From Planotetraspora kaengkrachanensis (GTDB lineage: Bacteria; Actinomycetota; Actinomycetes; Streptosporangiales; Streptosporangiaceae): a stretch of DNA of 64,000 nucleotides. The notes under the pieces are model-generated. The model worked only from the letters and a program-made list of their open reading frames with translations, was not told the origin of the DNA and made no database searches. Positions 7,222-48,605 of this stretch are shown here, in pieces (the stretch's first letter is position 1; each line of letters begins with the position of its first letter). Position numbers and translations under genes: made by a program. The DNA lies in assembly GCF_016862895.1 (NCBI RefSeq), contig NZ_BONV01000005.1:1-64000 (forward strand), given 5' to 3'.

Positions 7222-8415
7222 ATGGCGCAGCCTCATCGCATCTCCATGCTGGGCACCGGACTGATCGGCGACTTCTACACGATGACGTTGCAGGGCCGCC
7301 GCGGCCTCGATCGGGTCGAGGTGGCCTACTCCAGATCCGAGGAGCGAGGCGCGGCCTTCGCCGGGCGCTGGGACATCCCGCACTGGACCACCAGCCTGAA
7401 GGAGGCCGTGGAGCACCCCGCGACGGACACCGTCGTGGTCGGGCTGCCCAACGACATGCACGAGGAGGCGATCACGCTGGCCGCCGCGGCGGGCAAGGCC
7501 GTGTTGTGCACCAAGCCGCTGGCCAGGACGGCCGAGGAGGCGCGGCGCATCCTGCGTGCGGTCGAGGACGCGGGCGTGTTCGCCGGTTATCTGGAGGACC
7601 TCTGCTACACGCCCAAGACGCTCAAGGCCCTGGAGTCGGTGCGGGCGGGAGCGGTCGGCGACGTGCTCTGGGTGCGCTCGCGGGAGACACACCCCGGCCC
7701 GCACAGCGCGTGGTTCTGGGACGCCGCCAAGGCGGGTGGCGGCGCGATCGTCGACCTCGGCTGCCACTGTGTGGAGATCATCCGGAGCTTCGCCGGCAAG
7801 CAGAACCGCCCCGTCGAGGTCATGTGCTGGAAGGACACCCTGGTCCACCCGATCGAGGCCGAGGACAACGCGATCGCGCTGATCAAGTTCGAGAGCGGGG
7901 CGGTCGGCCAGTTCGAGGTGTCGTGGACGTTCCGCGGCGGCATGGACCTTCGCGACGAGGTGGCCGGCACCGAGGGCACGATCTGGCTCAACCACTTCCT
8001 GCGCACCGGTTTCGAGATGTTCACCGCCGGAGGCAATGAGGGATACGTCGCGGAGAAGGCGGAAAGCTCGCGCGGCTGGCTGTTCCCGGTGGGTGACGAG
8101 GTGTCCGAACTCGGCTATGTCGACATGTTCGCCGACATGTTCGACGCGTTGGACGCGGGCCGGCAACCCGCCGAGACCTTCTACGACGGCTACGTCGTCA
8201 ACGCCATCATGGATGCCTGCTACCGCTCGGCCGAGTCCCGCCAGTGGGAGCCGATCGAACTGGAGTGGCGAGGCGGCCAGACGGCACCCATCGACCGGGA
8301 CCGGCGCGAGTTCGACGGCCTGACCGTCATCAAGGACGAAGTGCTCCCGGACGGCCGGCGCAAGCTGATCCTCAAGGACGAGACCTCTGGCCGGTTCGAA
8401 GACCGAATCGTTTGA
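7222..8415 (+). CDS. Gfo/Idh/MocA-family dehydrogenase (first copy)
   Basis: 397 aa. The N-terminal Rossmann fold has GTGLIGDFY, and CTKPLART carries the Lys of the conserved (E/C)KP motif that positions the sugar substrate. [15 protein letters not shown] matches the D-x-G-x-H catalytic segment. Family members oxidise or epimerise sugars and polyols with NAD(P), often giving 3-keto sugars. It is transcribed alone, divergent from the FAD oxidoreductase, and ends against a bidirectional hairpin shared with the isomerase gene. It differs clearly from the second copy at 9393-10547. Confidence 0.9.
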
Positions 8416-8431
8416 CAGCCGGAGCAGGCCT

Positions 8432-8461
8432 GGCCCGCGTTCGCCGTCGCGACCGCGGGCC
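8432..8461. terminator. Bidirectional terminator-like hairpin
   Basis: GGCCCGCG (8432-8439) pairs perfectly with CGCGGGCC (8454-8461) between the convergent ends of the Gfo/Idh/MocA gene and the isomerase gene. No long U tract, as is common in high-GC actinomycetes. Confidence 0.5.
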
Positions 8462-8478
8462 GGTTTCCGGGATTGATC

Positions 8479-9396
8479 TCAGCCGACCAAGGGGGCCAGC
8501 GTGTTGCGGGCGATCAAGAAGCCGCGCTTGACCAATTCGTCGCTGCCCTCGAAGTTCCTGTCCTCGTGCTCGACGCACATGACGTAGTCGTAACCGGCTC
8601 GATAGAGACCGGCCACGAAGCGGTCCCACGGCACCTCGCCGAGGCCGGGCAGCCGGGGGATCTGCCAGCCGATGCCGGCCGAGAGGATGCCCCGTTGGTA
8701 CAGCATCTCGCGGTCGATCTCGAGGTCCTTTCCGTGCACGTGATAGATGCGCGAGCCGAATTCGCGTACCACCCGCTCGATGTCGATCATCTGCCAGACG
8801 AGGTGGGAGGGGTCGAGGTTGAGCCCCAGAGTGTCGCCGGGGATCGCGTCGAACATGTCCCGCCAGACCTGTGGCGCGTAGGCCAGGTTGTGGCCGCCTG
8901 GCCACTCGTCGCGGCTGAAGATCATCGGACAGTTCTCGATGGCGACGCGCACCCCGTGGTCGTCCGCGAAGGCCACCAACTCTGGCCAGACCCGGCGGAA
9001 CTCGGCGAAGTTCTCCTGCACGCTCTTGTTCTGGTCGGCGCCGATGAAGGTGTTGACGACCGGCACGGCCATGAGCGACGCGGCGCGGATGACCGCCCGC
9101 AAGTGGTCGTGGACGTGGGCGCGATGCTCGGGATCGGGGTGAAGCGGGTTGGGGTAGTAGCCGAGCCCGGAGATCTCGATGCCCCGGCCGCGCAGGTCGT
9201 CGACGATCTCCTTGGCCTGGGCGTCGCCGAGCCCGGCGACGTCGATGTGCGAGACGCCGGCGTAGCGGCGCGCCGTCCCCTCATGCCGCGGCCAGCAGGC
9301 CACCTCCAGCATGCCGAAGCCGTTCGCGGCGGCCCAGTCGGCGACGTCGGTGAGCGGAGTCCCGGGGAACGCCGCGGTGAGCAGGCCAAGCCTCAT
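8479..9396 (-). CDS. Sugar phosphate isomerase/epimerase-like TIM-barrel protein
   Basis: 305 aa of the AP endonuclease 2-like xylose isomerase fold (PF01261). Metal-binding landmarks include VAIENCPM, LNLDPSHLVWQ, YHVHGKD and CVEHED. Relatives next to Gfo/Idh/MocA enzymes act on keto sugars or inosose-type intermediates. The start at MRLGLLTAAF has an AGGAGA site 8 bases upstream and overlaps the stop of the second Gfo/Idh/MocA gene by four bases. Last gene of the transporter operon on the minus strand. Confidence 0.9.
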   Translation of the reverse strand: MRLGLLTAAFPGTPLTDVADWAAANGFGMLEVACWPRHEGTARRYAGVSHIDVAGLGDAQAKEIVDDLRGRGIEISGLGYYPNPLHPDPEHRAHVHDHLRAVIRAASLMAVPVVNTFIGADQNKSVQENFAEFRRVWPELVAFADDHGVRVAIENCPMIFSRDEWPGGHNLAYAPQVWRDMFDAIPGDTLGLNLDPSHLVWQMIDIERVVREFGSRIYHVHGKDLEIDREMLYQRGILSAGIGWQIPRLPGLGEVPWDRFVAGLYRAGYDYVMCVEHEDRNFEGSDELVKRGFLIARNTLAPLVG

Positions 9397-10547
9397 TCTT
9401 TTCTCCTCTCGACGGATACCCATCGGCCTTCCGCGTCGCTGCGCCTGATGGCCTCCTCCACGAACAGGCCCTCCAACCCGTCAGCGAAGGTGGGATAGGC
9501 GGGATCGGCCGATGGGCCGCCCGCGGCCACGTCCGCGTAGACCCGCTCGAACAGGCCGAGGAAGGTCTCGGCGAAGCCTTCCGCGTGCCCGCCGGGATAG
9601 TGTGCGACGCGTCTTGCGTCGGGTCCGAGCAGGGCAGGGTCGCGCCAGAGCCGCTCGTTGGGACGGTCGCGGTGGCCGAGCCAGAGTTGCTCGGCGGCCT
9701 CGGACGACCAGGCGAGCGCCGCGTCCGCCCCGTCGACCTCGATGCCCAGGGTGTTCTTACGGCCGGCCGACACCTGAGAGATGGTGAGCACGCCGCGGGC
9801 GGCCTCGCCGTACCGCAGCAAAAGCCCGGCCGCGTCGTCAGTGGACATCTCCACCGCCTCGCGCTCGCCTTCGTGTGTGGCGGCGAAGGTCTCCACAGGG
9901 GCCGTGGGGCGCAGCCGTCGCCGTACGAAGGTGTGCAGGTCCGCGAGGACCTCGGTCACCTGGAGCCCCGTGACGAAGCGGGCCAGGTCGAGCCAGTGGG
10001 AGCCGATGTCGGCCACCGCCCGCAGCGATCCGGCCTGGGCGGGGTCGAGCCGCCAGTTCCAGTCGGTGGCGCGCAGCAGCCAATCCTGCAGGTAGTGCCC
10101 GCTGATCAGGCGTGGCGCGCCGACCGCGCCCGCGCGCACCCTGGCGGCCGCCTCGTGCAGCACGGGGTAGAACCGGATGTTGAAGCACACCGCGTGGACG
10201 ACACCCGCCGCCTCGGCGGCGCGCAGCATGCGCAGCCCGTCGGCCGCGTCGAGGGCGAGCGGCTTCTCGCACACCACGTGCCTACCCGCCTCGATCGCCG
10301 CCAGAGCCTGCTCGGCGTGGACGTGGTTGGGACTGGTGACGTGGACGACCTGGACGTCGGGGTCGGCCAGCAGCTCCGGCAGGTCGTTGTAGACCCGTTC
10401 CGCCCCCATCCGGGCAGCCTTCTCGCGCGCCCGCTCGGGGCGGGAGCCGAGCACGCCGGCGACGTGCACGCCCGCCCGGCGCAACGCGTCGGCGTGCAGC
10501 TCCCCGATGAAGCCGACGCCGATCACGGCCGCACCCGGCCGCGTCAC
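9393..10547 (-). CDS. Gfo/Idh/MocA-family dehydrogenase (second copy)
   Basis: 384 aa beginning at a GTG that overlaps the upstream permease stop by four bases (GTGA). Motifs: IGVGFIGELHADAL for the nucleotide, VCEKPLAL with the catalytic Lys, and AVADIGSHWLDLARF for the active-site Asp/His. Together with the isomerase, which overlaps its 3' end, it forms a tightly coupled oxidation/isomerisation pair as found in inositol, levoglucosan and 3-keto-glycoside pathways. Which of these applies is not decided by the sequence. Confidence 0.92.
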   Translation of the reverse strand: MTRPGAAVIGVGFIGELHADALRRAGVHVAGVLGSRPERAREKAARMGAERVYNDLPELLADPDVQVVHVTSPNHVHAEQALAAIEAGRHVVCEKPLALDAADGLRMLRAAEAAGVVHAVCFNIRFYPVLHEAAARVRAGAVGAPRLISGHYLQDWLLRATDWNWRLDPAQAGSLRAVADIGSHWLDLARFVTGLQVTEVLADLHTFVRRRLRPTAPVETFAATHEGEREAVEMSTDDAAGLLLRYGEAARGVLTISQVSAGRKNTLGIEVDGADAALAWSSEAAEQLWLGHRDRPNERLWRDPALLGPDARRVAHYPGGHAEGFAETFLGLFERVYADVAAGGPSADPAYPTFADGLEGLFVEEAIRRSDAEGRWVSVERRKE

Positions 10548-11512
10548 CTGTCCCCCGTCCGCGCGCGGGAGGTGCGGATGTAGACCCAGGCGAGGACCAG
10601 CACGATCGTTCCGTAGAGCACCTGTTTCACCGCCTCGTCGACGTTGAGGACGTTGAGCATGGTGTCGAGCACGCTGAGGATCAGCGCGCCGAGGATGGTG
10701 CCGGTGTACCCGCCGGAGCCGCCCAGTATCGAGGTGCCGCCGATGACGGCCGCCGCGACGGAGGGCAGCAGATAGGAGCCGGCGAGCTGCAGGTCCACCG
10801 ATCCGCCGCGGCCGCCGATGAGGATGCCGGCGACCGCGGCGAGCAGTGCGCACGCCACGTAGACCGCGACCTCGACCGAGGCGACCCGGACGCCGGCCAG
10901 CCTGGCCGCCCTGCGGTTGCCGCCGATCGCGTAGATCAGCCGGCCCAGGCCGGTGCGGCGCAGCCCGAAGATCAGCAGGCCGCCGAGGAGCAACCAGACC
11001 AGCAGATTCCACGGGATGGGGCCGACGATGGTCCCGCCACCCAACTCCCGGACGAACTCGGGCATGCGGGTGGCGCCCTTGAGGAAGGTCTGGCTGCCCA
11101 CGGTGAGCAGGCCGGTGAGAATGGCCGACATGCCCAGCGTCATGATCAGCGCGTTGACCCGGAACACCGCGATGGCCACCCCGTTGACCAGGCCGATCAC
11201 CAGTCCTACCGCGAGCCCCTCCAGGATGGCCAGGGCAGTGCCGTCGGCCGCCCGCACCCCGGTGACGTACGCCGCGGCGGTCGCCGTCATGGCCACGGAC
11301 AGGTCGATGCCGCCGGTGAGCATGCACAGGGTCTGACCGCCCGCGATCAGCGCCAGCGGAACCGTCACCAGCAGCGTGTTGCGCAGTTGCGCGGCGCTCA
11401 GGAAGCCCTGGTCGATCACGCCGTTGGCCAGCACGAGCGCGGCCAGCACGCCGACCAGCACCAGCAGCGACCGGTCCACCTTGGGCCAGTCGCGCGCCCT
11501 GACGGCGGTCAT
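10544..11512 (-). CDS. Sugar ABC transporter permease (RbsC type), second
   Basis: 322-aa BPD_transp_2 inner-membrane protein with about nine hydrophobic segments. GGIDLSVAMTATAAAYV and GGTSILGGSGGYTGTILGA are the family signatures of ribose/galactose-type permeases. Starts at MTAVRARDW, overlapping the stop of the first permease by four bases. It should form a heterodimeric channel with that protein and be driven by the double ATPase. Confidence 0.93.
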   Translation of the reverse strand: MTAVRARDWPKVDRSLLVLVGVLAALVLANGVIDQGFLSAAQLRNTLLVTVPLALIAGGQTLCMLTGGIDLSVAMTATAAAYVTGVRAADGTALAILEGLAVGLVIGLVNGVAIAVFRVNALIMTLGMSAILTGLLTVGSQTFLKGATRMPEFVRELGGGTIVGPIPWNLLVWLLLGGLLIFGLRRTGLGRLIYAIGGNRRAARLAGVRVASVEVAVYVACALLAAVAGILIGGRGGSVDLQLAGSYLLPSVAAAVIGGTSILGGSGGYTGTILGALILSVLDTMLNVLNVDEAVKQVLYGTIVLVLAWVYIRTSRARTGDR

Positions 11513-34784: not shown

Positions 34785-37700
34785 ATGATTGTCAGACGCA
34801 AAGGCAGAGCGCCCACCTGGGCCGCTCTCGCCGCGCTCACCATGGCGGGCCTGGTCGGCCTGCCGCCCACCACAGCGCACGCCGCCGGCCCGGTTCTCCC
34901 CGGCAACGAAGGCGACGTGGGTGTCTACACCAACGGCGAGAGCCATGTCATGGACATCGGGGACCCGGTCTACAGCGCCGTCGGCGACGTCGCCGACCAG
35001 CTGAAGCCCGGCGTTCCGTTCACCGCGTCGAGCATGCACCAGTCGATCTTCGAGAAGGACCTGGCCGCCGGCGGCACCGACTACTACCTCGACCGCGTGC
35101 TCGGTGTTCGCGGCGCGATCGGGTCGGCCGTGCTGATGACCCGGGGCCGCTCGCTGTACATGCGCGGTGCGAGCAACAACAACTTCACCGTCATGGGCTT
35201 CGCCGGCAGCACCTTCGTCGGAGGCCCCAACAACCTCGGCAACCTGTACACGGTCACCGTGCCCGGGCAGACCGTGACCGAGGTGAACACGAACCGGTTC
35301 AACGCGCCCAGCCACGCCAAGAGCCAGTACACGATCGGGACCACCGGCGTCACCGCCGATCAGACGAAGTTCATCACCTACGACAACGTCGCGGTCACCG
35401 CCATCACCTTCACCAACCCCGGCGGGTCGGCGGCGACCTTCACAGTCCGGGCGGCCTCACCGCTGGCCACCCAGGCGGGCGCCTCCGCGGCCGAGCTGAC
35501 CGGCACCCGGGTCATCACCAGCGGTTCCAACAACGGGCTCATCGACACCCCGTGGAACACCGTCAAGATCGACCTCACCGGCGACGGCTTCACACGCGCC
35601 GGCGCCAACCTGGACCGCGAGATCACCGTTCCCGCCGGTAGCACGGTCTCGCTCTCCGTGGTCGGCGCGGTCTCCTCGGACTCGCTGCCGCAGACGGTGG
35701 AGGCCTACCACGACTACGCCGAGCTGACCCCCGCCGAGGCGGTCCGCACCGGCATCACGGCGTTCAACCGCCGCTGGGCGCAGGACGTGCCCTACATCGA
35801 CGTCCCCGATCCCGCGGTGGAGAAGGCCATCGTCTACCGCTGGTGGGGAGAGCGTTACAACTCCCTCGACGCCAACGCGACCGGCTATGTCTACCAGTAC
35901 CCCACGACGATCGAGGGAGTGAACCTCTACCAGAACGCCGTGGCGCTGACCCAGCCGATGCACCTGCAGGACACCAAGTGGCTGCGCACGCCGTACCTGC
36001 CGTACGGCCAGATCCTCAACATCGGCGAGCTGTCCGGCTCCTCGGCCTTCCTGGACAGCCCGGGTCACACCAGCTGGAACAACCACTACTCGCAGTACAT
36101 CGGCACGGCCGGCCTTGAGGCCTACGAAGTGCACGGTGGCGGCAAGGAGATCGCCGAGAAGTTCGCCCACTTCTTCGAGGGCGACGGCAAGGGCCAGCTC
36201 GAACACTACGACGGCAACAACGACAAGCTCATCGCGTACGACACCAACTACATGCCTGGCAACGACGCGGACGCCATCTCCTTCGGGTTCCCGAAGGCCA
36301 ACGCCGGCGCGCCCGGCGCGCGAACGATCGAGCGTCCGGAGTCGGCGTACGTGTGGGGCGCCTTCGATGCCGCCCGGCAGCTCTACCAGATCGCCGGCGC
36401 GGACCAGACCAAGGTCGACGAGATGGCGGCCGACGCCAACGGCATCCGGGACGCGATCCTGAACAAGCTGTGGAGCCCGGACACGCGGATGTTCCTGGCC
36501 GCCACGTCGCACGGCGCCACCAGCGGGGCGAGCTCCAACGGCCGCGCGAACCCGCTGCCCGTGGCGGCCCGCGGGTCGATCCCGGCCAAGGAGTCGAACC
36601 TCTACGACGTCTACTCCGAGAACCTCATCCCGTTCGACGAGTGGCAGAAGTACGTCGACGGCTACCGCTTCCTGACGTACGGCGACAACTTCCCGATCTT
36701 CCCCTTCTACACGGCCAACCAGTACGACCGGACGGCCTACGGGATCGGTGGATCGAACAACTTCTCCAACATCAACTTCACCGTGCAGTACCGCGCCGTG
36801 CGGTCGGCGCTGCGGCACTACGACCCGGAAGGAAAGTACGTCACCCCGGCCTACGCCAAGCGGCTGCTCGACTGGATGGCCTGGAGCATCTACCCGAACG
36901 CCGACCTGCGGGTCCCGAACCAGTCGGAGTACTACTCCAACTGGAACCCGGCCACCAAGACCTACAACCGCAACAACCCGAACCACGTGATGCTCGGGAA
37001 CATGAACTACATCTATGTCGAGGACATGGCCGGCATCCAGCCGAGGTCCGACGACAAGATCGAACTCTGGCCGATCAAGTTCGGCTACGAGCACTTCATG
37101 GTCAACAACCTGAAGTACCACGGCCAGGACGTCACCATCGTCTGGGACCCGGACGGCACCAACTACGGCCTGGGCGCGGGCTACAGCCTGTTCCTGAACG
37201 GCGAGCGCAAGGTCAGCACCGACCAGCTCGGCAAGGTCACCTACGACCCGAAGACCAACCAGGTCCAGGCCGACAACGGCCTCACCGTCACCTTCCACGC
37301 CGAGGACGGTGACGACTTCCCGGCCGCGGTGAACACCCCCATCGAGGACGACCGCGTCGTCTCGTACCTCAAGACGGCCGGCATCGACCTGACCGAGGAC
37401 TCGGCGAACCTGGCGAAGGGCGCCGCCCTCGCCTCGTCGTACACCCAGCAGGGCACCCGGCCGACCCCGTGGCGGCAGTTCCACACGCCCGGCTACAGCA
37501 CCACGTCGATGAACTACACGCCCGGTGCCATCAAGGAGACCGAGCAGCCCGTGGCGCTGGCGGCCGTGACCGACGGTGTCACCGCCAACGAGCCCTACTG
37601 GGGTAACTACGGCACGACCGACAAGAACGGCTATGTCGAGCTGAACCTGGGCTCGGCCAAGTCCTTCGACAACGTCAAGGTGTACTTCGTCAGCGACCGC

Positions 37701-39521
37701 CAGGCCGGTGGTTACCACGAGCCCGCGCGCTGGTGGATCCAGGTGCCCGACGGCAGCGGCGGCTGGAAGGAGGTGCCGGGCCAGTTCAAGAGCCCGGCCG
37801 TCCCGACGGCCAAGTTCAACGAGGCGCTGTTCGACGCCGTGTCCTCGGACAAGGTGCGCGTCGTCTTCACCAACAGCCCGACCTACTTCACCGCGATCTC
37901 CGAGATCCAGGTGTTCAACTCGGGCCGCGAGGTGCCGGAGGTCACCAACCAGGCGCCGGCCGTCACCGCCACGCGCGACGGCTCGGCGGACGGCAACCTG
38001 TCCACCCGGCTGGTCGGCACGGCCTCCGACGACGGCGTGCCGTACGACGACGAGCTGACCTTCGGCTGGGAGACCGTCTCGGCGCCGCAGGGCGCGGGCG
38101 TCATCTTCGCCGACCCCAGGGCGCAGGCCACCCGGGTGACCGGCACCGTCGCCGGTGACTACGTCTTCCGGTTCTTCGCCGACGACGGCGAGAAGCGGTC
38201 GACGGCGACCGTGTCGGTGACCCTCGCCAAGAAGGACGTCGTCGCGGAGTTCGGCTCCACGGCGTCGATCACCACCAGTGGCACCGCGTCCTGGGAGAAC
38301 CACTCGCGGGTCAACGAGGCCACCACGCCGAGCAGCTCCAACCCCGGCGCCGGCAACGGCTGGGGCAACTGGGGTCAGCCGCGCAACGGCACCAGCCCCG
38401 CCAACGAGGCGTGGATCCAGTACCAGTGGACCTCACCGGTGCGGCTCTCCTCGACCGACATCTACTGGTACGACGACAACGGCGGCACCCGCCGCCCCAC
38501 GGCCACGACCTACGCCGTCGAGACCTCGACGGACGGCACCACCTGGACGCCGGTCACGCTCACCGGGGGTTCCTCGTACGCCAACGGCCTGGCCACCAAC
38601 GCCTACAACCGCTTCAACTTCGAACCGGTGACCACGAGCCGGATCCGTATCCGGATCTGGGGCCTCATGTCCGGCGGCGCCGGCACCGGCGTGCTGCGCT
38701 GGCGCGCCAACGGCGAGACCGTCGACGCGGTGCGCTCGCCGGTGCTCATCCGGACCGGCGTGGGCATGGTGCCCACCCCGCCGGCGACGCTGGAGGCGGT
38801 CTACACCAGCGGCGCCCGCGGCACCGTGGCGTTCAAGTGGCAGCCGATCACCCCGGACATGGTCGCGGAAGCCAACGTCGACCCGTTCGTGATCTACGGC
38901 ACCAACGACGCCTACGGCCTGATCGCCGAAGCCCGGGTCTACGTGCGTCCCGAGATGTCAGACGACGGCATCTCGATCCAGGGCGCCGAATCCTTCCAGC
39001 AGCACGTCGAGGTCGGCGAGCTGCCCTACCTGCCCACCAAGGTGGAGGTCTCCTACAACGACGGATCCAGGGACAACCAGGCCATCGGCGTTAACTGGCG
39101 GTTCAACCCCGACATCGTCAACAGCGACGGCACCTACACCATCATCGGCGACCTGGTCCTGCCGCCGTACGTCAGCGAGGCCGGCACCATCCGGACCACA
39201 CTGACGCTGACAGTGGGTGAAGGCGGCCCGGTCTGGGCGACGGACGCGCAGGCGCGCAGCCAGTGCACCGGCACGAACGCCTACGTCACTGTCAACGTCC
39301 GCAACGACGACGACGTGCCGCTCACGATCGAGCTGATCACGCCGTACGGCTCGCGGACCGTGGCCAACGTGGCGCCCGGGAAGTTCGCCTACCAGGCGTT
39401 CAACTCCCGCGCCAAGTCGATCCCGGCCGGAACCGCGACCGTGAAGGTCACCGGAACCGTCGACGGCGTGCCGGTCACCGTGCCGGCACAGGTGCCGTAC
39501 GGCGCGCTCAACTGCGGCTAG
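34785..39521 (+). CDS. Large secreted modular glycoside hydrolase with discoidin and Big_4 domains
   Basis: 1578 aa, AGGAGGAAG before the ATG. Signal peptide about 1-33. An N-terminal beta-sandwich (about 35-310) and an alpha/alpha-barrel region (about 320-800; YRWWGERYNSL, PYGQILNIGELSG, YGDNFPIFPFYTANQYDR) look like an MGH1/GH63-type catalytic unit; catalytic acids are not assigned. Next come a discoidin/F5-8C-like domain (about 875-1044), a PKD/Ig-like domain (about 1050-1150), a second discoidin-like domain (1155-1315), two Big_4-type Ig domains (about 1322-1480) and a C-terminal two-Cys module (1486-1578) shared with the next gene. Likely acts on complex plant polysaccharide outside the cell. 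Confidence 0.85.
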   Translation: MIVRRKGRAPTWAALAALTMAGLVGLPPTTAHAAGPVLPGNEGDVGVYTNGESHVMDIGDPVYSAVGDVADQLKPGVPFTASSMHQSIFEKDLAAGGTDYYLDRVLGVRGAIGSAVLMTRGRSLYMRGASNNNFTVMGFAGSTFVGGPNNLGNLYTVTVPGQTVTEVNTNRFNAPSHAKSQYTIGTTGVTADQTKFITYDNVAVTAITFTNPGGSAATFTVRAASPLATQAGASAAELTGTRVITSGSNNGLIDTPWNTVKIDLTGDGFTRAGANLDREITVPAGSTVSLSVVGAVSSDSLPQTVEAYHDYAELTPAEAVRTGITAFNRRWAQDVPYIDVPDPAVEKAIVYRWWGERYNSLDANATGYVYQYPTTIEGVNLYQNAVALTQPMHLQDTKWLRTPYLPYGQILNIGELSGSSAFLDSPGHTSWNNHYSQYIGTAGLEAYEVHGGGKEIAEKFAHFFEGDGKGQLEHYDGNNDKLIAYDTNYMPGNDADAISFGFPKANAGAPGARTIERPESAYVWGAFDAARQLYQIAGADQTKVDEMAADANGIRDAILNKLWSPDTRMFLAATSHGATSGASSNGRANPLPVAARGSIPAKESNLYDVYSENLIPFDEWQKYVDGYRFLTYGDNFPIFPFYTANQYDRTAYGIGGSNNFSNINFTVQYRAVRSALRHYDPEGKYVTPAYAKRLLDWMAWSIYPNADLRVPNQSEYYSNWNPATKTYNRNNPNHVMLGNMNYIYVEDMAGIQPRSDDKIELWPIKFGYEHFMVNNLKYHGQDVTIVWDPDGTNYGLGAGYSLFLNGERKVSTDQLGKVTYDPKTNQVQADNGLTVTFHAEDGDDFPAAVNTPIEDDRVVSYLKTAGIDLTEDSANLAKGAALASSYTQQGTRPTPWRQFHTPGYSTTSMNYTPGAIKETEQPVALAAVTDGVTANEPYWGNYGTTDKNGYVELNLGSAKSFDNVKVYFVSDRQAGGYHEPARWWIQVPDGSGGWKEVPGQFKSPAVPTAKFNEALFDAVSSDKVRVVFTNSPTYFTAISEIQVFNSGREVPEVTNQAPAVTATRDGSADGNLSTRLVGTASDDGVPYDDELTFGWETVSAPQGAGVIFADPRAQATRVTGTVAGDYVFRFFADDGEKRSTATVSVTLAKKDVVAEFGSTASITTSGTASWENHSRVNEATTPSSSNPGAGNGWGNWGQPRNGTSPANEAWIQYQWTSPVRLSSTDIYWYDDNGGTRRPTATTYAVETSTDGTTWTPVTLTGGSSYANGLATNAYNRFNFEPVTTSRIRIRIWGLMSGGAGTGVLRWRANGETVDAVRSPVLIRTGVGMVPTPPATLEAVYTSGARGTVAFKWQPITPDMVAEANVDPFVIYGTNDAYGLIAEARVYVRPEMSDDGISIQGAESFQQHVEVGELPYLPTKVEVSYNDGSRDNQAIGVNWRFNPDIVNSDGTYTIIGDLVLPPYVSEAGTIRTTLTLTVGEGGPVWATDAQARSQCTGTNAYVTVNVRNDDDVPLTIELITPYGSRTVANVAPGKFAYQAFNSRAKSIPAGTATVKVTGTVDGVPVTVPAQVPYGALNCG

Positions 39522-39529
39522 CACTCACT

Positions 39530-39559
39530 GGTGGCGGCGTCCCCGGCGGCGCCGCCACC
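39530..39559 (+). terminator. Intercistronic stem-loop
   Basis: GGTGGCGGCG (39530-39539) and CGCCGCCACC (39550-39559) pair perfectly nine bases after the giant glycosidase stop and 41 bases before the GH43 start. May terminate partially or protect the upstream mRNA. Confidence 0.45.
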
Positions 39560-39600
39560 ACCCCCCGCTGAGAACTCGCTGACAGTAAGGAAGCAGGACC

Positions 39601-42600
39601 TTGAAGATCGCCGTGAGGCGCTCCGACGCCTCATCACCCCCCCGCTCCCGGCCGAAGCGCCGGTTCCGCAGGACCGCCGCGGCGGCGGTCGCCCAGCTCG
39701 TGGCCGTATGCCTGGTCGGGGTTCCCGTTCCGGCCCACGCCGCCGACTCCACCACCTTCACCAACACCCGCAACCCCATCCTGGGCGACGGGACCTACTA
39801 CTCGGCCGACCCGGCCCCGGTCGTCATCCCGGCGGGCGCCCCCGGCAACACCAGCGGTCACGACGAGCTCTACATCTACACCGGCCATGACCAGGCCGGG
39901 CCGTCCACCAACGACTTCATCATGAACGAGTGGGGCGCGTTCCGTACCACTGACGTCGAGGCCGGCCAGTGGACCCACTATCCGTCGCTGATGCGCCCCG
40001 AGCAGGTCTTCGCCTGGGCGACCCCGGGGCGCGCGTACGCGGGCCAGATGATCCAGGGCGTGGACGGGCGCTACTACTGGTACGTCCCGGTCAGCGAGCG
40101 GAACAGCACCGCGTCCGACAAGTTCGCCATCGGCCTGGCCGTCGCGACGTCGCCGACCGGCCCGTGGACCGACTACGTCGGGGGGCCGCTGATCTCCCAG
40201 CGGGTGCCCTCGGCCAACAACATCCAGAACATCGACCCGACGATCCTGATCGACGGCGAGGCCCCCAACCAGCGGGTCTACGTCTACTGGGGCACCTTCG
40301 GGAACCTGCGGATGCTCGAGTACCAGCAGGACATGAAGACGCCGATCGGCACTCAGCGCTCCATCACCGGCCTGACCGGCTTCTTCGAGGCGCCCTGGGT
40401 CTTCGAGCGGAACGGCACGTACTACATGGCGTACGCCGGGAACAACGCCGGCCCGACCTCGCAGTGCACCCCGGCGAACTACCACGCCTGCATCGCGTAC
40501 GCGACGGCCTCCTCGCCCGCGGGGCCGTGGACCTACCGGGGCACCGTGCTCCGGCCGGTCTCCTCGACCACCAGCCACCCGGGCATCCTGGAGTTCAACG
40601 GCAAGTGGTACATCGCGTACCACACGGCCGACGCGGTCGGCGGCGGGCACTTCCGCCGTTCGGTCGCGATCGACCGGGTGGAGTGGGACGACACGCAGAC
40701 CCCGCCGCGGATGAAGCCCGTCACGCCGACGCCGGTCAAGGGACGTGACCTCACGCCCCGCCCGAACGTCGCGCAGGAGGCCAAGGTCACCGTCTCCAAC
40801 GAGCCCGTGCCCACCCAGTACTGGGTGAAGGCGCTCAACGACGAACTCGTCCGGTCCAACCCGCTGCCGCCGGACATGTGGGGCACCTGGACCGGCAACA
40901 ACCCGCCGCAGCAGTGGGTGCAGTACACGTGGGACCAGCCGATGCGGATCTCCGGTTCGCAGATCGACTTCTGGAACGACAACCCGCAGGGCAGCGGCGT
41001 GGGCGTCGCGGCCCCCGCCGGCTGGAAGATCCAGTACTGGAACCTCGCCATCGGCCAGTGGGCCGACGTGCCCAACGCGAGCGGCTATCCAACCGGCACG
41101 CAGGGCCTCCAGAACACCGACTTCGACCCGGTCACCACCACGCAGGTACGCGCGACCTTCGACGCCTCCACCAATGGCAGCACCTACTCGGCGGTCGCGG
41201 TCGAGGAGTGGAAGATCCTGGCCACGCAGCCGGAGACCGTCGATCCGCCGGCCATCACCGTCGAAGTGGGCGAAACGGAGCTGCCCGGCACCGTCGGCGT
41301 CGCCTTCGGCGGCGAGACGCTGCGGATCCCGGTCTTCTGGGACCCGCTGACCCCCGAGCAGGTCGCCCAGCCCGGCACGGTCACCATCCGGGGAACCGTG
41401 CTCGGCTACGCCGCCGGCCGTATCTCCACGCAGGTCACGGTCCTCTCGCCGGACGACACCGAAGGCGACGAGACCGCGCCGACGTTGACCCTCACCCCCA
41501 GCGGCAGCTCGGGCAACGCCGGCTGGTACCGCTCGGCGGTACGGGTGCGCGTCAACGGCGTCGACGACCGCGGCGGCCGGATGACCATTGAGACGAAGGT
41601 GGACGACGGCCAGCCGGTCGTCACCACCGACACCCGGCAGGCCGACGCCAACGTCTCCGGGGACGGCGAGCACGCCGTCACCGCGAATGCGACCGACCGC
41701 GCGGGCAACGTCTCGACACCCGAGAACCTCACGGTACGCATCGACGCCACGGCACCGGTCAGCGTCGGCACCCTGAACACCACCACCCGGTCGGTCGGTG
41801 TCCTCGCGACCGACGCCACCTCCGGCGTCGCCGGCATCGAGTACGCCATCGGCACCGGCCCGTGGAGCCCCACCGCCGGCGGCGTCATCACGGCGCCCGA
41901 CGCCAACCGGCACACCGTGTCGTACCGGGCGATCGACAAGGCGGGAAACCTGGAGACCGCCAAGACGGTCGTCATCCCGGCGGACCTGTCCGCGCCGCTC
42001 AACGGCAACATCGCCCCAGTCGCGACCTCGACCGCCTCCTACACGGCGGGCTGGAACAACGTCACCGCCCTCAACGACGACGCCGACCCGGCCAACCCGA
42101 GCCAGGCGCAGATCTGGGGCACCTGGTCCGGCACCCGCCCGGCGACCCAGTGGGTCCAGTACGACTGGTCACGCCCCGTACGGATCATCAGCACCGAGCT
42201 GAAGTTCTGGCGGGACTCCAACCAGGGCACCGGCGACGGCGTCGCCCAGCCCGACGGCTGGGTGCTCCAGTACTGGGACGAGGCGACCTCGGCCTGGCGT
42301 GACGTGCCCGGCGCGTCCACGTACGGCACGAGCACGACCGCGTTCAACAACGTCACCTTCGACCCGATCACCACGTCCCGGGTACGGGCCACGGTCCGGG
42401 CCGACGGCAACGGCACCGCCTACTCCGCGGTGGCGATCACGGAATGGCGGGTCTTCGCCCAGGAACCGGCTCCCGAGGAGCCCGCCGAGATCCCCGTCAC
42501 GATCACGGTCCTGCCGCGGTGCCTGGCAGGCAAGGCGTACGTGGCCGTGCAGGCGCGCAACGACCATGACGCGGCGGCGAGCATCACCCTGGAGAGCGCG

Positions 42601-42777
42601 TACGGCGAGCGATCGTTCCCGAATGTCGCGCCGGGCGCGAGCGCCTACCAGTCGTTCGCCACCCGTACGGCCTCGATCGCGGCGGGTTCGGTCACCGTCA
42701 GCGCCACCGGGGCGGTGGACGGCGAGGAGACCACCTCCGAGTACACCGCGGATTTCCACGCTCTCTCCTGTTCCTGA
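39601..42777 (+). CDS. Secreted GH43-family glycosidase with two discoidin domains
   Basis: 1058 aa from TTG (KIAVRRSD). Signal peptide about 1-47. Five-bladed GH43 domain about 50-380 with the expected acids Asp70 (SADPAPV), Asp212 (NIDPTIL) and Glu263 (FFEAPWVF), so an alpha-L-arabinofuranosidase or beta-xylosidase-type activity is expected. Then a discoidin-like domain (about 384-540), a Big_4 domain (550-617), Ig/OmpL47-like repeats (620-793), a second discoidin-like domain (800-953, 40-50 percent alike by eye, both with WGTW and QWVQY) and the C-terminal two-Cys module (967-1058). Confidence 0.9.
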   Translation: MKIAVRRSDASSPPRSRPKRRFRRTAAAAVAQLVAVCLVGVPVPAHAADSTTFTNTRNPILGDGTYYSADPAPVVIPAGAPGNTSGHDELYIYTGHDQAGPSTNDFIMNEWGAFRTTDVEAGQWTHYPSLMRPEQVFAWATPGRAYAGQMIQGVDGRYYWYVPVSERNSTASDKFAIGLAVATSPTGPWTDYVGGPLISQRVPSANNIQNIDPTILIDGEAPNQRVYVYWGTFGNLRMLEYQQDMKTPIGTQRSITGLTGFFEAPWVFERNGTYYMAYAGNNAGPTSQCTPANYHACIAYATASSPAGPWTYRGTVLRPVSSTTSHPGILEFNGKWYIAYHTADAVGGGHFRRSVAIDRVEWDDTQTPPRMKPVTPTPVKGRDLTPRPNVAQEAKVTVSNEPVPTQYWVKALNDELVRSNPLPPDMWGTWTGNNPPQQWVQYTWDQPMRISGSQIDFWNDNPQGSGVGVAAPAGWKIQYWNLAIGQWADVPNASGYPTGTQGLQNTDFDPVTTTQVRATFDASTNGSTYSAVAVEEWKILATQPETVDPPAITVEVGETELPGTVGVAFGGETLRIPVFWDPLTPEQVAQPGTVTIRGTVLGYAAGRISTQVTVLSPDDTEGDETAPTLTLTPSGSSGNAGWYRSAVRVRVNGVDDRGGRMTIETKVDDGQPVVTTDTRQADANVSGDGEHAVTANATDRAGNVSTPENLTVRIDATAPVSVGTLNTTTRSVGVLATDATSGVAGIEYAIGTGPWSPTAGGVITAPDANRHTVSYRAIDKAGNLETAKTVVIPADLSAPLNGNIAPVATSTASYTAGWNNVTALNDDADPANPSQAQIWGTWSGTRPATQWVQYDWSRPVRIISTELKFWRDSNQGTGDGVAQPDGWVLQYWDEATSAWRDVPGASTYGTSTTAFNNVTFDPITTSRVRATVRADGNGTAYSAVAITEWRVFAQEPAPEEPAEIPVTITVLPRCLAGKAYVAVQARNDHDAAASITLESAYGERSFPNVAPGASAYQSFATRTASIAAGSVTVSATGAVDGEETTSEYTADFHALSCS

Positions 42778-42828
42778 GGGCCCACCCCTATCTCCAGAAA
42801 TTCCCCATAATCCAGAGTGGAGCACTAC

Positions 42829-43449
42829 ATGAAAATCCAACCCAAATGGCTGCTCGCGGCGGCCGTCGCGCTGACCGCTTCCGTGGCGCTGCCGGGGCCC
42901 GCCGTGGCCGACCCCGGCGACAGCACCGACGTCGAGGTGACGGTCGAAATCGCGCCGATCGAGGAGCCGGGCGTGCTCGCCATGTCGATCGCCGCGGACT
43001 CCGTCGCGCTGAGCGAGGACGGCTCGACCCTGGAGACCCGCCAGTTCACCGGCACCCTGCCGACGGTGACGGTCACCGACACCCGCACGTTGGAGGAGGT
43101 GCCCAACGGCGCCGCATGGGCCGTCCTCGGCAACGCGTCCGACTTCGTCGGCGACGCCGGTCAGGCGCCCATCAGCGCCGGCCACCTCGGCTGGAAGCCG
43201 CACCTGATCGACGGCGGCGAGACCGGCCTGGTCGCCGAAGGCGAGGAGGTCGTGACCGTCCTCGACGAGCCGACCCAGCCCGGCAACAACGTCGGTCTGG
43301 TCGACCAGGAACTCCTGGCCTCGACCTTCGATTCCGGCGCCGTGGCCGGCGGCGCGTACACCGTCAACGCCGACCTGTTCCTGCGCACCCCCGCGGACGT
43401 CGCGGCGGGTTCGTACGCCTCGACGCTGACCCTGTCCCTCTTCGAATAA
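42829..43449 (+). CDS. WxL-domain-like secreted surface protein
   Basis: 206 aa, GGAG ahead of the ATG. Signal peptide about 1-28 ending in VADPGDS. The mature part is all-beta: TVTVTDTRT, AWAVLGNASDF, GHLGWKPHL, then AGGAYTVNADLFL and GSYASTLTLSLFE, a layout like WxL surface domains (Trp-containing strands and a final GxYxxTLTLTL strand). No membrane anchor or sortase motif. The partner DUF916 gene directly downstream supports the assignment; strict WxL motifs are not perfectly kept. Confidence 0.6.
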   Translation: MKIQPKWLLAAAVALTASVALPGPAVADPGDSTDVEVTVEIAPIEEPGVLAMSIAADSVALSEDGSTLETRQFTGTLPTVTVTDTRTLEEVPNGAAWAVLGNASDFVGDAGQAPISAGHLGWKPHLIDGGETGLVAEGEEVVTVLDEPTQPGNNVGLVDQELLASTFDSGAVAGGAYTVNADLFLRTPADVAAGSYASTLTLSLFE

Positions 43450-43465
43450 CCGAATAGCCGACGGA

Positions 43466-43491
43466 TGGGGGCCGCAGCGTCGCGGCCCCCA
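43466..43491 (+). terminator. Intercistronic stem-loop between WxL-like and DUF916 genes
   Basis: TGGGGGCCGC (43466-43475) and GCGGCCCCCA (43482-43491) form a perfect 10-bp stem with a 6-base loop. It would lower expression of the membrane partner relative to the secreted protein. Confidence 0.5.
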
Positions 43492-43518
43492 CCACCCCCT
43501 TTCGCCGGAGGCCCCGCC

Positions 43519-44559
43519 GTGATCCGAACCCTGTCGCAGACGCTGCCGCGGCTCCTCGCCGTGCTCACGGCGGCGCTCCTCACCGTGCCTTTCGCGCCCG
43601 TCGACGCACTGGCCGACCCGGCTCCGACCCTCACCTGGTCGGTCCAGCCGGCCGACGAGCAGGGCCCGGACGGCCGCCGATGGGTCGAGCTCACCCTCGA
43701 CCCGGGTCAGACCGTGACCGAGTACCTGGCTGTGCGGAACTTCAGCGACGCCGCCGCCGACTTCGCCCTGAAGGCCGCCGACGGCTACCTCACCGACAAG
43801 GGCCGCTTCAACATGCTCCAGTCCGGCCAGACGTCCAAGGACGGCGGCACCTGGATCAAGGTCCAGAACAAGGTCACCGTCGGGGCCGACGAGACGAAGG
43901 TGGTGCCGTTCACGATCACCGTGCCGCGTGACGCCGCGCCGGGGGACCATCCGGCCGGCATCGCGGCGACGGTCACCAGCGCCGGCGACACGGTCTCCGT
44001 GGAGAGCCGGGTGGGGTTCCGAGTCATGACGCGCACCACCGGCACGATCACGGCGGCGGTGGCGGTCAGCGACCTCACGGCCGTGTACGAGCAGTCGTGG
44101 AATCCCTTCTCGTCTGGTGCCATCCGGGTCAAGTACACGGCGACGAACAAGGGGAACGTCACGGTGAGCGGAGTCGGCGAGGTGACGGTCAGCGACCTGT
44201 CCGGTCAACGTGATGCCAAGACCGATGTGGAGGAGATCTTCCCCGGCGACAGCCGTACGGTGGAGACCCGCATCGCGGGAGTCTGGGCCCTGGGCCCGCT
44301 CTCCACGAGCGTCACCGTGTCCCCGTCCGTCCACGGTGGCGTCCCCGTCGGCGTCGTGGTCGAGGACGCCACCACCGACATGACGATCTGGACCGTGCCC
44401 TGGCCCCAATTGGCCCTGGCCGCGCTCCTCGTGATCCTCTTCTTCTCCTACCGGGGCATCACCTGGCGCCGCCGCCGGCATCTGGCGGACCTGCTCGCCC
44501 GCGCCCGCGATGAAGGCCGCGCGGAGGCCCAGGAGTCCTCACGGAACGCCCAGGTTTAG
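43519..44559 (+). CDS. DUF916/WxL-interacting-type membrane-anchored protein
   Basis: 346 aa from GTG with GGAGG 7 bases upstream. Signal peptide about 1-33; first Ig-like domain about 36-175 (WVELTLDPGQTVTEYLAVRN, GTWIKVQ, VPFTITVPRDAAPGDH), a second to about 285 (VKYTATNKGNVTVSG), then one transmembrane helix (LALAALLVILFFSY) and a basic cytoplasmic tail. This is the DUF916-DUF3324 layout of CscA-like proteins that bind WxL partners and peptidoglycan. The gene follows the WxL-like gene by 69 bp. Confidence 0.78.
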   Translation: MIRTLSQTLPRLLAVLTAALLTVPFAPVDALADPAPTLTWSVQPADEQGPDGRRWVELTLDPGQTVTEYLAVRNFSDAAADFALKAADGYLTDKGRFNMLQSGQTSKDGGTWIKVQNKVTVGADETKVVPFTITVPRDAAPGDHPAGIAATVTSAGDTVSVESRVGFRVMTRTTGTITAAVAVSDLTAVYEQSWNPFSSGAIRVKYTATNKGNVTVSGVGEVTVSDLSGQRDAKTDVEEIFPGDSRTVETRIAGVWALGPLSTSVTVSPSVHGGVPVGVVVEDATTDMTIWTVPWPQLALAALLVILFFSYRGITWRRRRHLADLLARARDEGRAEAQESSRNAQV

Positions 44560-46310: not shown

Positions 46311-48605
46311 ATGGACAACGTAGGCGAACAGCACGGTGTCGGACGCCGTGCCCTGATTCAGGCCGCTCTGGCCGCTCCCGCCGTCGGCGCTTTGTCGACG
46401 CTGGTAGGCGCCTCTCCGGCGAGCGCGGACGATGGACACCGTTCCGGTGGCAACGGGCACTTCGACGAGGAAAGCCCCCGTTTCGCCCTGGCCGTGCTGC
46501 CGGACACCCAATACCTTTTCGACGCGGACAGCGCCAACCCCGAGCCACTGCTCAAGACCTTCGACTACCTCATTCAGGAACGCGCAGACCTGAACATCGC
46601 GTTCATGACGCACCTCGGCGATGTCACCGAGCACGGCACCGAGCAGGAGGAAACGCTCGCGGGCAAGACCTTCCGGGCCATCGACGACAAGGTGCCGTAC
46701 AGCGTGCTCGCGGGAAACCACGACGTCACGTCGGACGACCAGCGCGGAAAGACGCCCTACTTGAGCGTCTTCGGCCCGCAGCGCTTCGCCAAGTCGCCGA
46801 CCTTCGGCGGCGCCTCACCCGACGGCTACAACAGTTTCCACGTGGTCCGGGCGGGCGGCCGTGAATGGCTGATCCTCGCGCTCGACTGGAGGCTGTCGGA
46901 CAAGGGCGTGCAGTGGGCGCAAGGCGTCATCGACGCTCACCGCACGCTGCCCGTCATTCTCACCACCCACGAGCTGGTCGCTCCGGGCGACAACGGCACG
47001 GCGTCCCTGTCCGCCTACGGGCAACAGCTGTGGGACGGCGTCATTCGCCGTAACGACCAGATCTTCCTCACGCTCAACGGTCACTTCTGGCCGCCCGCGC
47101 GCACGGTTCTGAAGAACGACGCGGGGAACGACGTTCACGCGCATATCACCAACTACCAGGACCGCTACTACGGTGGCGGCGGCATGATCCGCCTGTATCA
47201 CTTCGACCTCGTCCGGAACGTCGTCGACGTCGAAACCTTCTCGCCGTGGTTCCTGGACCACGACCCGGAGCGGCGGTCTCCGCTCGAGGCCGAGACGCTG
47301 GAGCTCACCGGCCCGACGGACCGTTTCAGCATCGACATCGACTTCACCGCGCGCTTCCAGGGGTTCGCCCCGGTGACGCCGCCCCCTCCGCGCCCCGTCA
47401 GTGCCGTGACGCCCAAGAGCACCGTGGCGTACTGGCGCTTCGACGCGGCAGGGCTGACCGGAGCCGGCACGGCGGGAAGCCCCGTCGCGGCCGGAACGGT
47501 GGTTCCCGACCTCACCGGCAACGGCAACAACCTGACGGTTCAGCTGCTCGGCACTCCGGTGCCAGGCAACCTGCTCGGCCAGGTCAGCGCGGTGACCGCG
47601 AGCGCCGAGAACGCGCCGAACGAAATCGCCGCGAACCTCAAGGACGGCAATTCGTCGACCAAGTGGCTGGCGTTCAGCTCGACCGGCTGGGTGACCTACC
47701 GGCTGGCCAAGCCCGCGGTGGTGGTGCAGTACGCGCTGACCTCCGCGAACGACTCGGCGGGCCGCGACCCCAAGGACTTCACGGTGCAGGGCTCGAACGA
47801 CGGCAGTTCGTGGACCGACCTGGACACGCAGACGGGGGTGAGCTTCAGCGGGCGGTTCGCCACCAACACCTACAGCTTCACCAACAAGACCGCCTACGCG
47901 TACTACCGGCTCAACGTCACCGCGAACTCCGGTGACTCGCTCATCCAGCTCGCCGACTGGAGCATCGGCGACGGCTCGAACCATCTGCTCACCTGGTCGC
48001 CCGATCACCACACCGGGCAGCCGGCGCATGCCAGCCTGCGCTTCGACGGAGGCAAGAGCCCCGACAGGGCTGCGATTCTCGAGGCCGTGGCCGGTGCGCC
48101 CGTCAACAGCATGAAGTTCCGCTCCGGATACACGATCGAGGCGTTCATCAAGCTGCCCGATCCGTTCCAGGGTGACCACGCCTGGATGGGCATCCTCAGC
48201 TGGGAGGGTCGCAGCGGCGACGCCGGCAAGACCAACGGCTTCTCCCAGGACGAACCCACCTGCAGCCTGAACCTGTCTCCCGAGCGGTTCCTGCAGTACA
48301 TCGTCTATCCGGACGTGCAGAACTCGAGCCCCACCTCGTGGAGCCACGCCCTGCCGCCCGGAGAGTGGATGCACATCGCCGTGGTCAACGACGGCCGGGC
48401 AACGGTGATCTACGTGAACGGATCGAAGATCGTCCGTAACCCCACTCAGCCTTCGACGGGCATCGCCACCCTCGGCAAGCCGTTCGTCCTCGGTGCCACG
48501 CAGAGTGACCTGCAGTTCGGCCAGGGCTTCTACGGATGGATCGGCGACGTTCGCATCTCGTCCCGCGCGTTGCGGACGAGCGAGTTCCTGACCACCTTCA
48601 AGTGA
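46311..48605 (+). CDS. Tat-exported metallophosphoesterase with discoidin and LamG-like domains
   Basis: 764 aa. Twin-arginine signal about 1-40 (GVGRRALIQAALAAPAVG). Calcineurin-like phosphoesterase about 57-345 with metal ligands in LPDTQY, HLGDV, AGNHDV, TTHEL and NGHFW. Then a discoidin-like domain (about 425-550; TASAENAPNEIAANLKDGNS, DFTVQGSNDGSSWTDL) and a LamG-like concanavalin fold (about 575-760; TIEAFIKLPD, WMHIAVVNDG, GDVRISSRAL). Folded, metal-loaded export suits a surface enzyme that binds glycans and removes phosphate. GGAG precedes the ATG; likely monocistronic. Confidence 0.88.
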   Translation: MDNVGEQHGVGRRALIQAALAAPAVGALSTLVGASPASADDGHRSGGNGHFDEESPRFALAVLPDTQYLFDADSANPEPLLKTFDYLIQERADLNIAFMTHLGDVTEHGTEQEETLAGKTFRAIDDKVPYSVLAGNHDVTSDDQRGKTPYLSVFGPQRFAKSPTFGGASPDGYNSFHVVRAGGREWLILALDWRLSDKGVQWAQGVIDAHRTLPVILTTHELVAPGDNGTASLSAYGQQLWDGVIRRNDQIFLTLNGHFWPPARTVLKNDAGNDVHAHITNYQDRYYGGGGMIRLYHFDLVRNVVDVETFSPWFLDHDPERRSPLEAETLELTGPTDRFSIDIDFTARFQGFAPVTPPPPRPVSAVTPKSTVAYWRFDAAGLTGAGTAGSPVAAGTVVPDLTGNGNNLTVQLLGTPVPGNLLGQVSAVTASAENAPNEIAANLKDGNSSTKWLAFSSTGWVTYRLAKPAVVVQYALTSANDSAGRDPKDFTVQGSNDGSSWTDLDTQTGVSFSGRFATNTYSFTNKTAYAYYRLNVTANSGDSLIQLADWSIGDGSNHLLTWSPDHHTGQPAHASLRFDGGKSPDRAAILEAVAGAPVNSMKFRSGYTIEAFIKLPDPFQGDHAWMGILSWEGRSGDAGKTNGFSQDEPTCSLNLSPERFLQYIVYPDVQNSSPTSWSHALPPGEWMHIAVVNDGRATVIYVNGSKIVRNPTQPSTGIATLGKPFVLGATQSDLQFGQGFYGWIGDVRISSRALRTSEFLTTFK

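Follow-up and report, generated by a model that had tools for sequence, protein, structure and literature searches.

Firmicutes hold over 91% of 938 WxL sequences according to the available text of one survey (PMC9772566), with up to 9% found elsewhere, so the presence of WxL outside Firmicutes is not in itself new. In the Csc clusters of these bacteria, a small secreted WxL protein is encoded beside a protein composed of a signal peptide, a PGBD (DUF916) domain, a second domain and a transmembrane segment, here called WxLIP; this two-protein anchor is most familiar from lactic acid bacteria and related groups. In the accessible portions of the respective papers, CscA is assumed to be anchored in the cell membrane (Siezen et al., PMC1534035), and AlphaFold2 models insert a hairpin of WxLIP into WxL, with WxLIP proposed as the WxL anchor and its helix thought to enter the host membrane (Hassan et al., PMC10599100). 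A variant of this WxL/Csc surface system occurs in the actinomycete Planotetraspora kaengkrachanensis, within the first 64,000 nucleotides of contig NZ_BONV01000005.1 (forward strand; this whole stretch is called the window), where four genes in a row encode a GH121 enzyme, a GH43 enzyme, a small WxL-type protein and a WxLIP-type protein. The main point of the locus, overlooked in the original prediction made from the letters alone, is a C-terminal domain (CTD) common to the two enzymes, which probably plugs them into a shared WxL/WxLIP anchor and would make the four genes one surface unit.

The likeness to the Firmicutes clusters lies in the small WxL/WxLIP pair and extends to large proteins with a C-terminal WxL, which also occur elsewhere in actinobacteria. 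Unlike those clusters, the window locus has one WxL, whose second motif is lost, and one WxLIP, with no large WxL (CscC) adjoining and no LPxTG protein (CscD) seen, and the Csc clusters invoked in the original prediction are thus not matched in the strict sense. The actinobacterial cargo, moreover, consists of separate enzymes with a dedicated CTD, and the hosts are GC-rich actinomycetes. HtaA-type clusters from the organism's own bacterial family (L093-L102) share the WxL superfamily and the WxLIP partner with the window locus, but there the WxL forms part of HtaA or of a different secreted protein, and the CTD search gave no match in those loci.

The succession of a GH121 and a GH43 enzyme has a counterpart in the hypBA1-hypBA2-hypAA set of Bifidobacterium longum, which serves hydroxyproline-rich glycoproteins as far as the available sources describe it. 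In a Herbidospora relative (L108) a GH127 gene (L108:301-2121) heads the operon, giving GH127-GH121-GH43; no GH127 gene is adjacent to the window operon. The B. longum system differs in its anchor: according to the available text of PMC7263609, HypBA2 is built as GH121-F5/8-Big4 and then bears its own FIVAR-transmembrane anchor, where the window has the CTD together with WxL and WxLIP. The cohesin-dockerin pair of cellulosomes is alike in logic only: there too, enzymes of many kinds end in an exchangeable module and have one surface partner in common. In contrast to the calcium-binding helical dockerin the CTD is modelled as an all-beta sandwich, and one small WxL socket would stand where cellulosomes have a multi-cohesin scaffold; cohesins do occur among the weaker fold matches of the small WxL model, at Z about 6, among many beta-sandwiches and under FimA.

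Among the titles listed for open-licence PMC papers on WxL, DUF916, actinobacteria and cellulosome-like actinobacterial systems none describes this arrangement, in a search partly swamped by unrelated terms and to that extent a weak test, and single-protein database annotations may exist. A study of five Planotetraspora genomes reports GH121 once or twice in each, and its available text does not mention WxL or DUF916 (PMC11431748).

A C-terminal domain shared by secreted enzymes

The last ~95 residues of the GH121 and GH43 enzymes are homologous (45% identity over 86 residues; 41% for the two CTDs). No other protein encoded in the genome of the window matches the CTD at E <= 0.01. The AlphaFold2 model of the CTD from the GH43 enzyme is a seven-stranded, all-beta, Ig-like sandwich (pLDDT 96.4). 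No close solved relative was found: designed Ig proteins, at E 5.7e-4, are what the sequence profile picks up, Foldseek returns nothing for the model at E <= 1e-3, and in structural alignment with VIA-align the best score (Z 9.9) goes to a transglutaminase domain, with many unrelated proteins scoring similarly. The pilus chaperones YadV and Caf1M reach Z 8.1-8.2 among many others, and no function is read from that likeness. Two Cys are near-invariant in the aligned CTDs, and because the sole row that lacks the first also lacks the second (L085:11649-11948), the pair may form a disulphide. Two assignments were considered and rejected. A known Pfam domain did not fit, the best match among 35 members being at E 0.0035 and the weak hits falling in four different families; nor did a dockerin, given the seven beta strands of the model and the lack of any dockerin among the Pfam matches of the 35 CTDs at E <= 0.01.

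The position of the domain is nearly invariable. In 223 of 224 CTD proteins, a set that includes repeats because some loci were fetched twice (named-genome loci duplicating earlier contigs), the CTD ends at most 20 residues from the C-terminus, and a C-terminal transmembrane-like or LPXTG-like segment is found in none of the 224, versus a transmembrane helix in 91 of 97 WxLIP relatives. An N-terminal hydrophobic segment was counted in 130/224 CTD proteins, 111/119 small WxL proteins and 84/97 WxLIP proteins, figures to be read with the gene caller's trimming of starts in mind.

The proteins that carry the CTD fall into 39 clusters, of which 36 representatives entered the Pfam tally (three short ones were left out), and at least ten catalytic families bear it. 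Among enzymes acting on sugars these are GH121, several GH43 types, GH127, GH95 and a rhamnogalacturonan lyase; the others comprise ThuA, GSDH, copper-radical-oxidase-like and multicopper oxidase proteins, M14 and S8 peptidases, a nuclease/5'-nucleotidase, a purple-acid phosphatase and a tannase-like DUF6351 protein. The S8 peptidase carrier sits in G343, a genome without WxL. Because the carriers include non-carbohydrate enzymes, a carbohydrate-binding role for the CTD would not fit the cargo range. In one ThuA/copper-radical-oxidase CTD enzyme (L133:5034-9908), residues 1353-1519, in front of the CTD, match the NCBIfam model of the TafC fimbrial protein at E 5.5e-14.

Linkage of the CTD to small WxL genes

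Independent loci were collected with the small-WxL profile alone: 319 stretches fit the pattern, 267 encode relatives, and the best 80 were kept, making up 78 loci in named genomes, the genera of which we take to belong to Streptosporangiaceae and Micromonosporaceae. In all 80 cases a CTD gene lies directly upstream of the small-WxL gene on the same strand, with a gap of 18-234 bases. Two CTD genes stand in a row before small WxL in 60 of the 80, and a WxLIP gene follows directly downstream in 56, contig ends explaining 2 of the remaining 24. The 80/80 adjacency is the clean figure. In the first neighbourhoods 30/30 small-WxL genes follow a CTD-bearing gene, in the same set that seeded the CTD profile. 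Among 101 unique small-WxL sequences a CTD is directly upstream in 97 and within four genes in all 101, with WxLIP directly downstream in 69, in a set biased by having been partly picked by CTD, WxL or WxLIP coordinates and by containing some contigs repeatedly. The coupling to glycosidases proposed in the original prediction is firmer than could have been known then, with a CTD common to both enzymes and an adjacency that held in 80/80 cases.

The same picture is seen within single genomes. In G534, a single-contig genome of 7.4 Mb with 7 small WxL, 14 CTD and 2 WxLIP, all seven small-WxL genes lie less than 1 kb from a CTD, and 20000 random placements gave at most 2. In G268, 7 CTDs and one small WxL are found within about 23 kb; in the bacterial family of this genome, some small-WxL genes lie ahead of the CTD gene or are divergently oriented to it (L197, L207, L208).

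Co-occurrence was further examined in three panels, with at most 20 candidates scored per genome in the single-sequence search, 12 in the CTD scan and 8 in the WxL scan. Among 396 genomes across the phylum, the CTD occurs in 6, WxL-type domains in 22 and PF06030 in 33; five of the six CTD genomes have a WxL-type match, and small WxL lies beside the CTD in the window's own genome (G000) and in G225, G268 and G316. In 150 genomes of the organism's own family, small WxL is present in 18 and the CTD in 20, the latter in 18/18 genomes with small WxL versus 2/132 others. The corresponding figures for 120 genomes of G268's family are 8 and 17, with the CTD in 8/8 versus 9/112 others; small WxL is here defined by 18 matches above 130 bits, a self-chosen cut, the next score being 100.8. 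Fisher p values are 2e-21 and 3e-8, respectively, uncorrected for relatedness. PF06030 matches in 26/26 small-WxL genomes at E <= 0.01 (with G653 below the cut-off), as well as in G460 and G555. Collectively, the linkage between CTD and small WxL is strong and near-obligate in the sampled families, with two bacterial families supplying most of the cases.

Small WxL was counted in G492 from contig-edge fragments only. As the contig ends of G492 and G460 illustrate, short-read assemblies seem to be interrupted where small WxL genes resemble one another, and WxL counts from drafts may be too low. Several genomes of G268's family, including those of L192, L193 and L196, have no small WxL but encode weak relatives of the CTD on single proteins of ~950-970 residues.

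CTD and fused WxL as alternative tails

WxL domains also occur fused to larger actinobacterial proteins. In 33 such proteins the WxL ends 0-3 residues from the C-terminus and the CTD is found in none; most of them adjoin a WxLIP gene, and their cargo includes HtaA, S15 and M64 peptidases, GH18, GH92, an esterase and a phosphatase. No protein in the examined sets combines CTD, WxL and WxLIP domains. In two pairs of related proteins the tails differ. A protein in L211, with a fused WxL and no Pfam match, and one in L194, with a CTD (47 bits), neither of an assigned class, share 71% identity across the 620 residues that precede their tails, and the purple-acid-phosphatase-like enzymes L092 (from the window's own genome, with fused WxL) and L134 (with a CTD and small WxL adjoining) are 31% identical over 373 residues. 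Because CTD and WxL are mutually exclusive, because tails swap and because HypBA2 has a transmembrane segment at the same place, the CTD appears, judging by the sequences, to take the place of an anchor.

L092 (G000:C36:12000-31900, ~8192-11224) belongs to the second WxL/WxLIP pair of the window's own genome, in which the fused-WxL enzyme is followed by a PF06030 protein. In the clusters L093-L102, a WxLIP gene likewise comes after that of HtaA (L093) or of another secreted protein with a WxL tail. At L218:4272-6359, a WxL tail is joined to a 'choice-of-anchor M' domain, which presents a further choice of anchor.

The WxL-type protein and its WxLIP partner

The 210-aa product of the third gene has no direct match in Pfam or NCBIfam, and PF13731 does not match it up to E 0.1 or E 1. 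The family is reached through its relatives. PF13731 matches 13 of the 32 aligned homologues at E <= 1 (best 3.1e-9) and 9 of the 10 fused domains from L093-L102 at E <= 0.01, and hhalign links a profile of 18 close small proteins to those 10 fused domains with a probability of 99.3% (E 2.4e-20, 36% identity). According to the available text of PMC9772566, WxL domains have a GTxAG turn, and the first Trp is preceded by conserved Asp and Arg residues at W-8 and W-6. L093 and like members keep this -8/-6 spacing; in the 32 sequences aligned with the window protein, D88 and R90 are invariant and lie 13 and 11 residues before W101, the turn being longer. The first motif reads W101-A-V and the second T-L-S-L, and the Trp of the second motif is absent from all 32 sequences. 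Given the profile chain to PF13731 and the lost second Trp, the protein is a divergent WxL-superfamily member that does not satisfy the definition by two motifs. The WxL-like character claimed in the original prediction thus stands by the profile chain, and not by a direct PF13731 match or a second Trp-x-Leu motif.

The AlphaFold2 model of the small WxL (pLDDT 80.8) resembles FimA pilins by Foldseek (E 4.5e-4) and structural alignment (Z 8.8, rmsd 3.6, 139 aligned residues, from the N-terminal strand on), a Z that is near background for common arrangements. Against PDB sequences the best match of the small-WxL profile is at E 0.085. A C-terminal transmembrane-like segment is found in 0/119 small-WxL proteins.

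The 364-aa product of the fourth gene matches PF06030 (WxLIP_PGBD) directly, at 32.0 bits against a cut-off of 27.3. The assignment to the DUF916 family in the original prediction is borne out by this match, and with WxL placed by the profile chain, it is not the case that profile searches leave both proteins outside their families. A DUF3324-type domain gave no Pfam match up to E 0.1; a second conserved segment between the PGBD and the transmembrane helix is present in 34 aligned relatives. The N-terminal motif NQIDKxxxYFDLK, given in the accessible part of PMC10599100, is absent from the window WxLIP, where the matching region, read by eye, is GPDGRRWVELTLDPGQ.

The GH121 and GH43 enzymes

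Residues 108-869 of the 1578-aa protein match 6m5a, the crystal structure of HypBA2, at E 4.5e-104; Glu383, Asp515 and Glu713 of HypBA2 align with E377, D494 and E715 of the window protein, the chain-to-residue offset of 6m5a having been derived from the construct limits. Likeness to HypBA2 and the three catalytic acids together point to a GH121 enzyme; NCBIfam model NF041578 matches at E 6e-169, under its equivalog cut-off. The 1058-aa protein matches PF04616 (GH43) at 104 bits against a cut-off of 32.2, and F5/8-type and Big_4 modules are common to both enzymes. Both probably act on arabinose-containing glycans. Because GH121 is the family of HypBA2 and the operon of a relative adds GH127, arabinan or pectin, which had been named as growth substrates for a deletion experiment, are by analogy less likely targets than the beta-L-arabino-oligosaccharides of hydroxyproline-rich glycoproteins.

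A model for enzyme display and its alternatives

In the proposed mechanism, both enzymes, which lack a membrane segment or sorting motif at their own C-termini, would be secreted, as would the small WxL, and WxLIP, anchored in the membrane, would keep the small WxL at the wall. Each enzyme would bind the small WxL or the WxL-WxLIP pair through its CTD, and enzymes acting on beta-L-arabinosylated hydroxyproline-rich plant glycoproteins would thereby be displayed on the cell. WxL would act as a shared socket and the CTD as a plug attachable to any secreted enzyme, while other actinobacterial proteins would skip the plug and carry WxL fused at their own C-terminus. On balance we consider it probable that the four genes form one surface unit of this kind, the products of which would be made together. 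For a soil actinomycete, anchoring of WxLIP in the cell membrane would be a simpler reading than entry into a host membrane. A wider proposal is put forward tentatively and could well fail: actinobacteria would possess a plug-and-socket display system in which the Ig-like CTD, a previously undescribed domain borne by at least ten catalytic families, fits into a WxL held by WxLIP through non-covalent contacts and with no need for sortase, with several plugs per socket (G268) and several sockets per anchor (G534), resembling a minimal cellulosome and perhaps using strand complementation of the FimA type.

Several observations weigh against docking of the CTD into small WxL. The CTD occurs without small WxL in G479 and G460 of the organism's own family, in G343 and in nine genomes of G268's family. 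The best CTDs of these nine are weak (52.7-72.4 bits); five of the genomes have only fused or weak WxL and four (G555, G569, G601, G645) have no match to the small-WxL profile. PF06030 is likewise unmatched in G343, G479, G601, G569 and G645. Because there are CTD genomes without small WxL or PF06030, the CTD can persist without the socket, and its relatives in genomes free of small WxL count against exclusivity. In G257, three CTDs lie together, at a distance of about 2 Mb from the sole WxL match, a fused one, and even in G534, 4 of the 14 CTDs are more than 10 kb from any small WxL. No small WxL accompanies the 7 CTD matches of G460; because its WxLIP gene borders a contig end, on the side on which a WxL gene would lie, an assembly gap is a likely but unproven explanation. 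Further, the genome of L194 (G565) has fused but no small WxL, so that the swap between L211 and L194 does not pair the CTD with small WxL. Finally, operon linkage can arise from a shared substrate alone.

This last point leads to the explanation that WxL, WxLIP and the enzymes are co-operonic merely through the same plant substrate, the enzymes being freely secreted and the CTD an independent spacer, stabiliser or carbohydrate binder. Such an explanation would accommodate the generic Ig-like sandwich fold of the CTD, for which the best-scoring transglutaminase domain is one of many unrelated proteins of similar score, the CTD relatives in genomes without small WxL and the probable action of both window enzymes on arabinose-containing glycans. 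However, some of the enzymes that share the CTD act on substrates other than carbohydrates (nucleotidase, peptidases, phosphatase), and the explanation sits poorly with a domain that is terminal in 223/224 proteins, absent from all 33 fused-WxL proteins and linked to small WxL in 80/80 cases; we therefore regard it as doubtful, though not far-fetched.

Adjacency also bears on the partner of the CTD. In another arrangement, the CTD would bind WxLIP or the cell wall directly, with small WxL merely stabilising WxLIP. Against it, the CTD directly adjoins WxL in 80/80 cases and WxLIP directly adjoins WxL in 56/80, and G534 combines its 7 small WxL and 14 CTDs with just 2 WxLIP. This arrangement is unlikely, even with the PF06030 match in 26/26 small-WxL genomes and the published models in which the WxLIP hairpin lies inside WxL (available text of PMC10599100) on its side. 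Highly improbable, in turn, is a small WxL that serves as a pilin-like subunit, assembling by strand exchange into a fibre decorated by CTD enzymes. The resemblance of its model to FimA (Z 8.8 in an alignment that begins with the N-terminal strand; Foldseek E 4.5e-4) and the seven small-WxL genes of G534 are in keeping with a fibre, but a Z of about 8 is usual for common arrangements, and the C-terminal transmembrane-like segment expected of sortase-type pilins is found in 0/119 small-WxL proteins. Docking into a WxL/WxLIP anchor is the reading preferred for the four-gene locus.

Organization of the locus

As called, the four plus-strand genes span 34785-39521, 39601-42777, 42817-43449 and 43465-44559, with products of 1578, 1058, 210 and 364 aa and gaps of 15-79 bases, which vary with the start codons chosen (Table 1). 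Two secreted modular glycosidases, a WxL-like protein and a DUF916 protein on one strand with short gaps are thus present as originally claimed. The order GH121-GH43-WxL-WxLIP is kept in 12/12 neighbourhoods, comprising the window and the closest relatives of its small WxL protein (L065-L075), which is more than chance. No sigma-70-like promoter or terminator-like site was found on the plus strand between 33900 and 46400, in a scan that is not informative for an actinomycete. An open frame at 42846-43457, in another phase, was rejected as a gene and looks like a GC-rich shadow frame. Downstream, window positions 46311-48605 encode a secreted metallophosphatase with a twin-arginine-like leader (RRALIQ) and F5/8 and laminin-G modules, which gave no match in the CTD and WxL searches.

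Table 1. Features of the four-gene locus (positions in the window)
Feature	Position	Strand	Remarks
GH121 beta-L-arabinobiosidase-like enzyme, predicted secreted	34785..39521	+	Signal peptide, GH121 catalytic region, K319L-like PKD, F5/8 type C, Big_4, CTD
CTD of GH121 enzyme, candidate C-terminal docking domain	39234..39518	+	No Pfam family
GH43 enzyme, predicted secreted	39601..42777	+	GH43, F5/8 type C modules, Big_4, Big_13, CTD
CTD of GH43 enzyme	42475..42774	+	AlphaFold2 beta-sandwich, pLDDT 96.4
Small secreted WxL-type protein	42829..43449	+	Signal peptide and WxL-like domain; likelier start ATG 42829, GGAG in front
WxL-like domain	42970..43446	+	Motif 1, D88-x-R90...W101-A-V103; motif 2, T-L-S-L, not W-x-L
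WxLIP-type anchor	43519..44559	+	Signal peptide, PF06030 PGBD, second conserved segment, C-terminal transmembrane helix; likelier start GTG 43519, GGAGG in front
PF06030 WxLIP_PGBD (DUF916) domain	43666..43965	+	34.5 bits in genome search, above cut-off
C-terminal transmembrane helix of WxLIP	44386..44470	+	Hydropathy peak 1.86 at residue 308 of 364; Arg-rich tail after

Implications

To our knowledge, it is poorly understood how mycelial actinobacteria retain polysaccharide enzymes without sortase motifs at their surface. If the proposed docking holds, this retention would be accounted for in several families by a terminal domain that can be transferred between proteins and has its own partner at the surface, and the CTD would offer a genetically encoded tag for enzyme display. 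The proposal makes testable whether WxL serves as a socket for other proteins or only as a wall-binding domain, the role reportedly described by Brinster in 2007 (cited in PMC4449606). If it is true, WxL would gain a role beyond host adhesion, and the WxL/WxLIP system would extend well past its Firmicute core.

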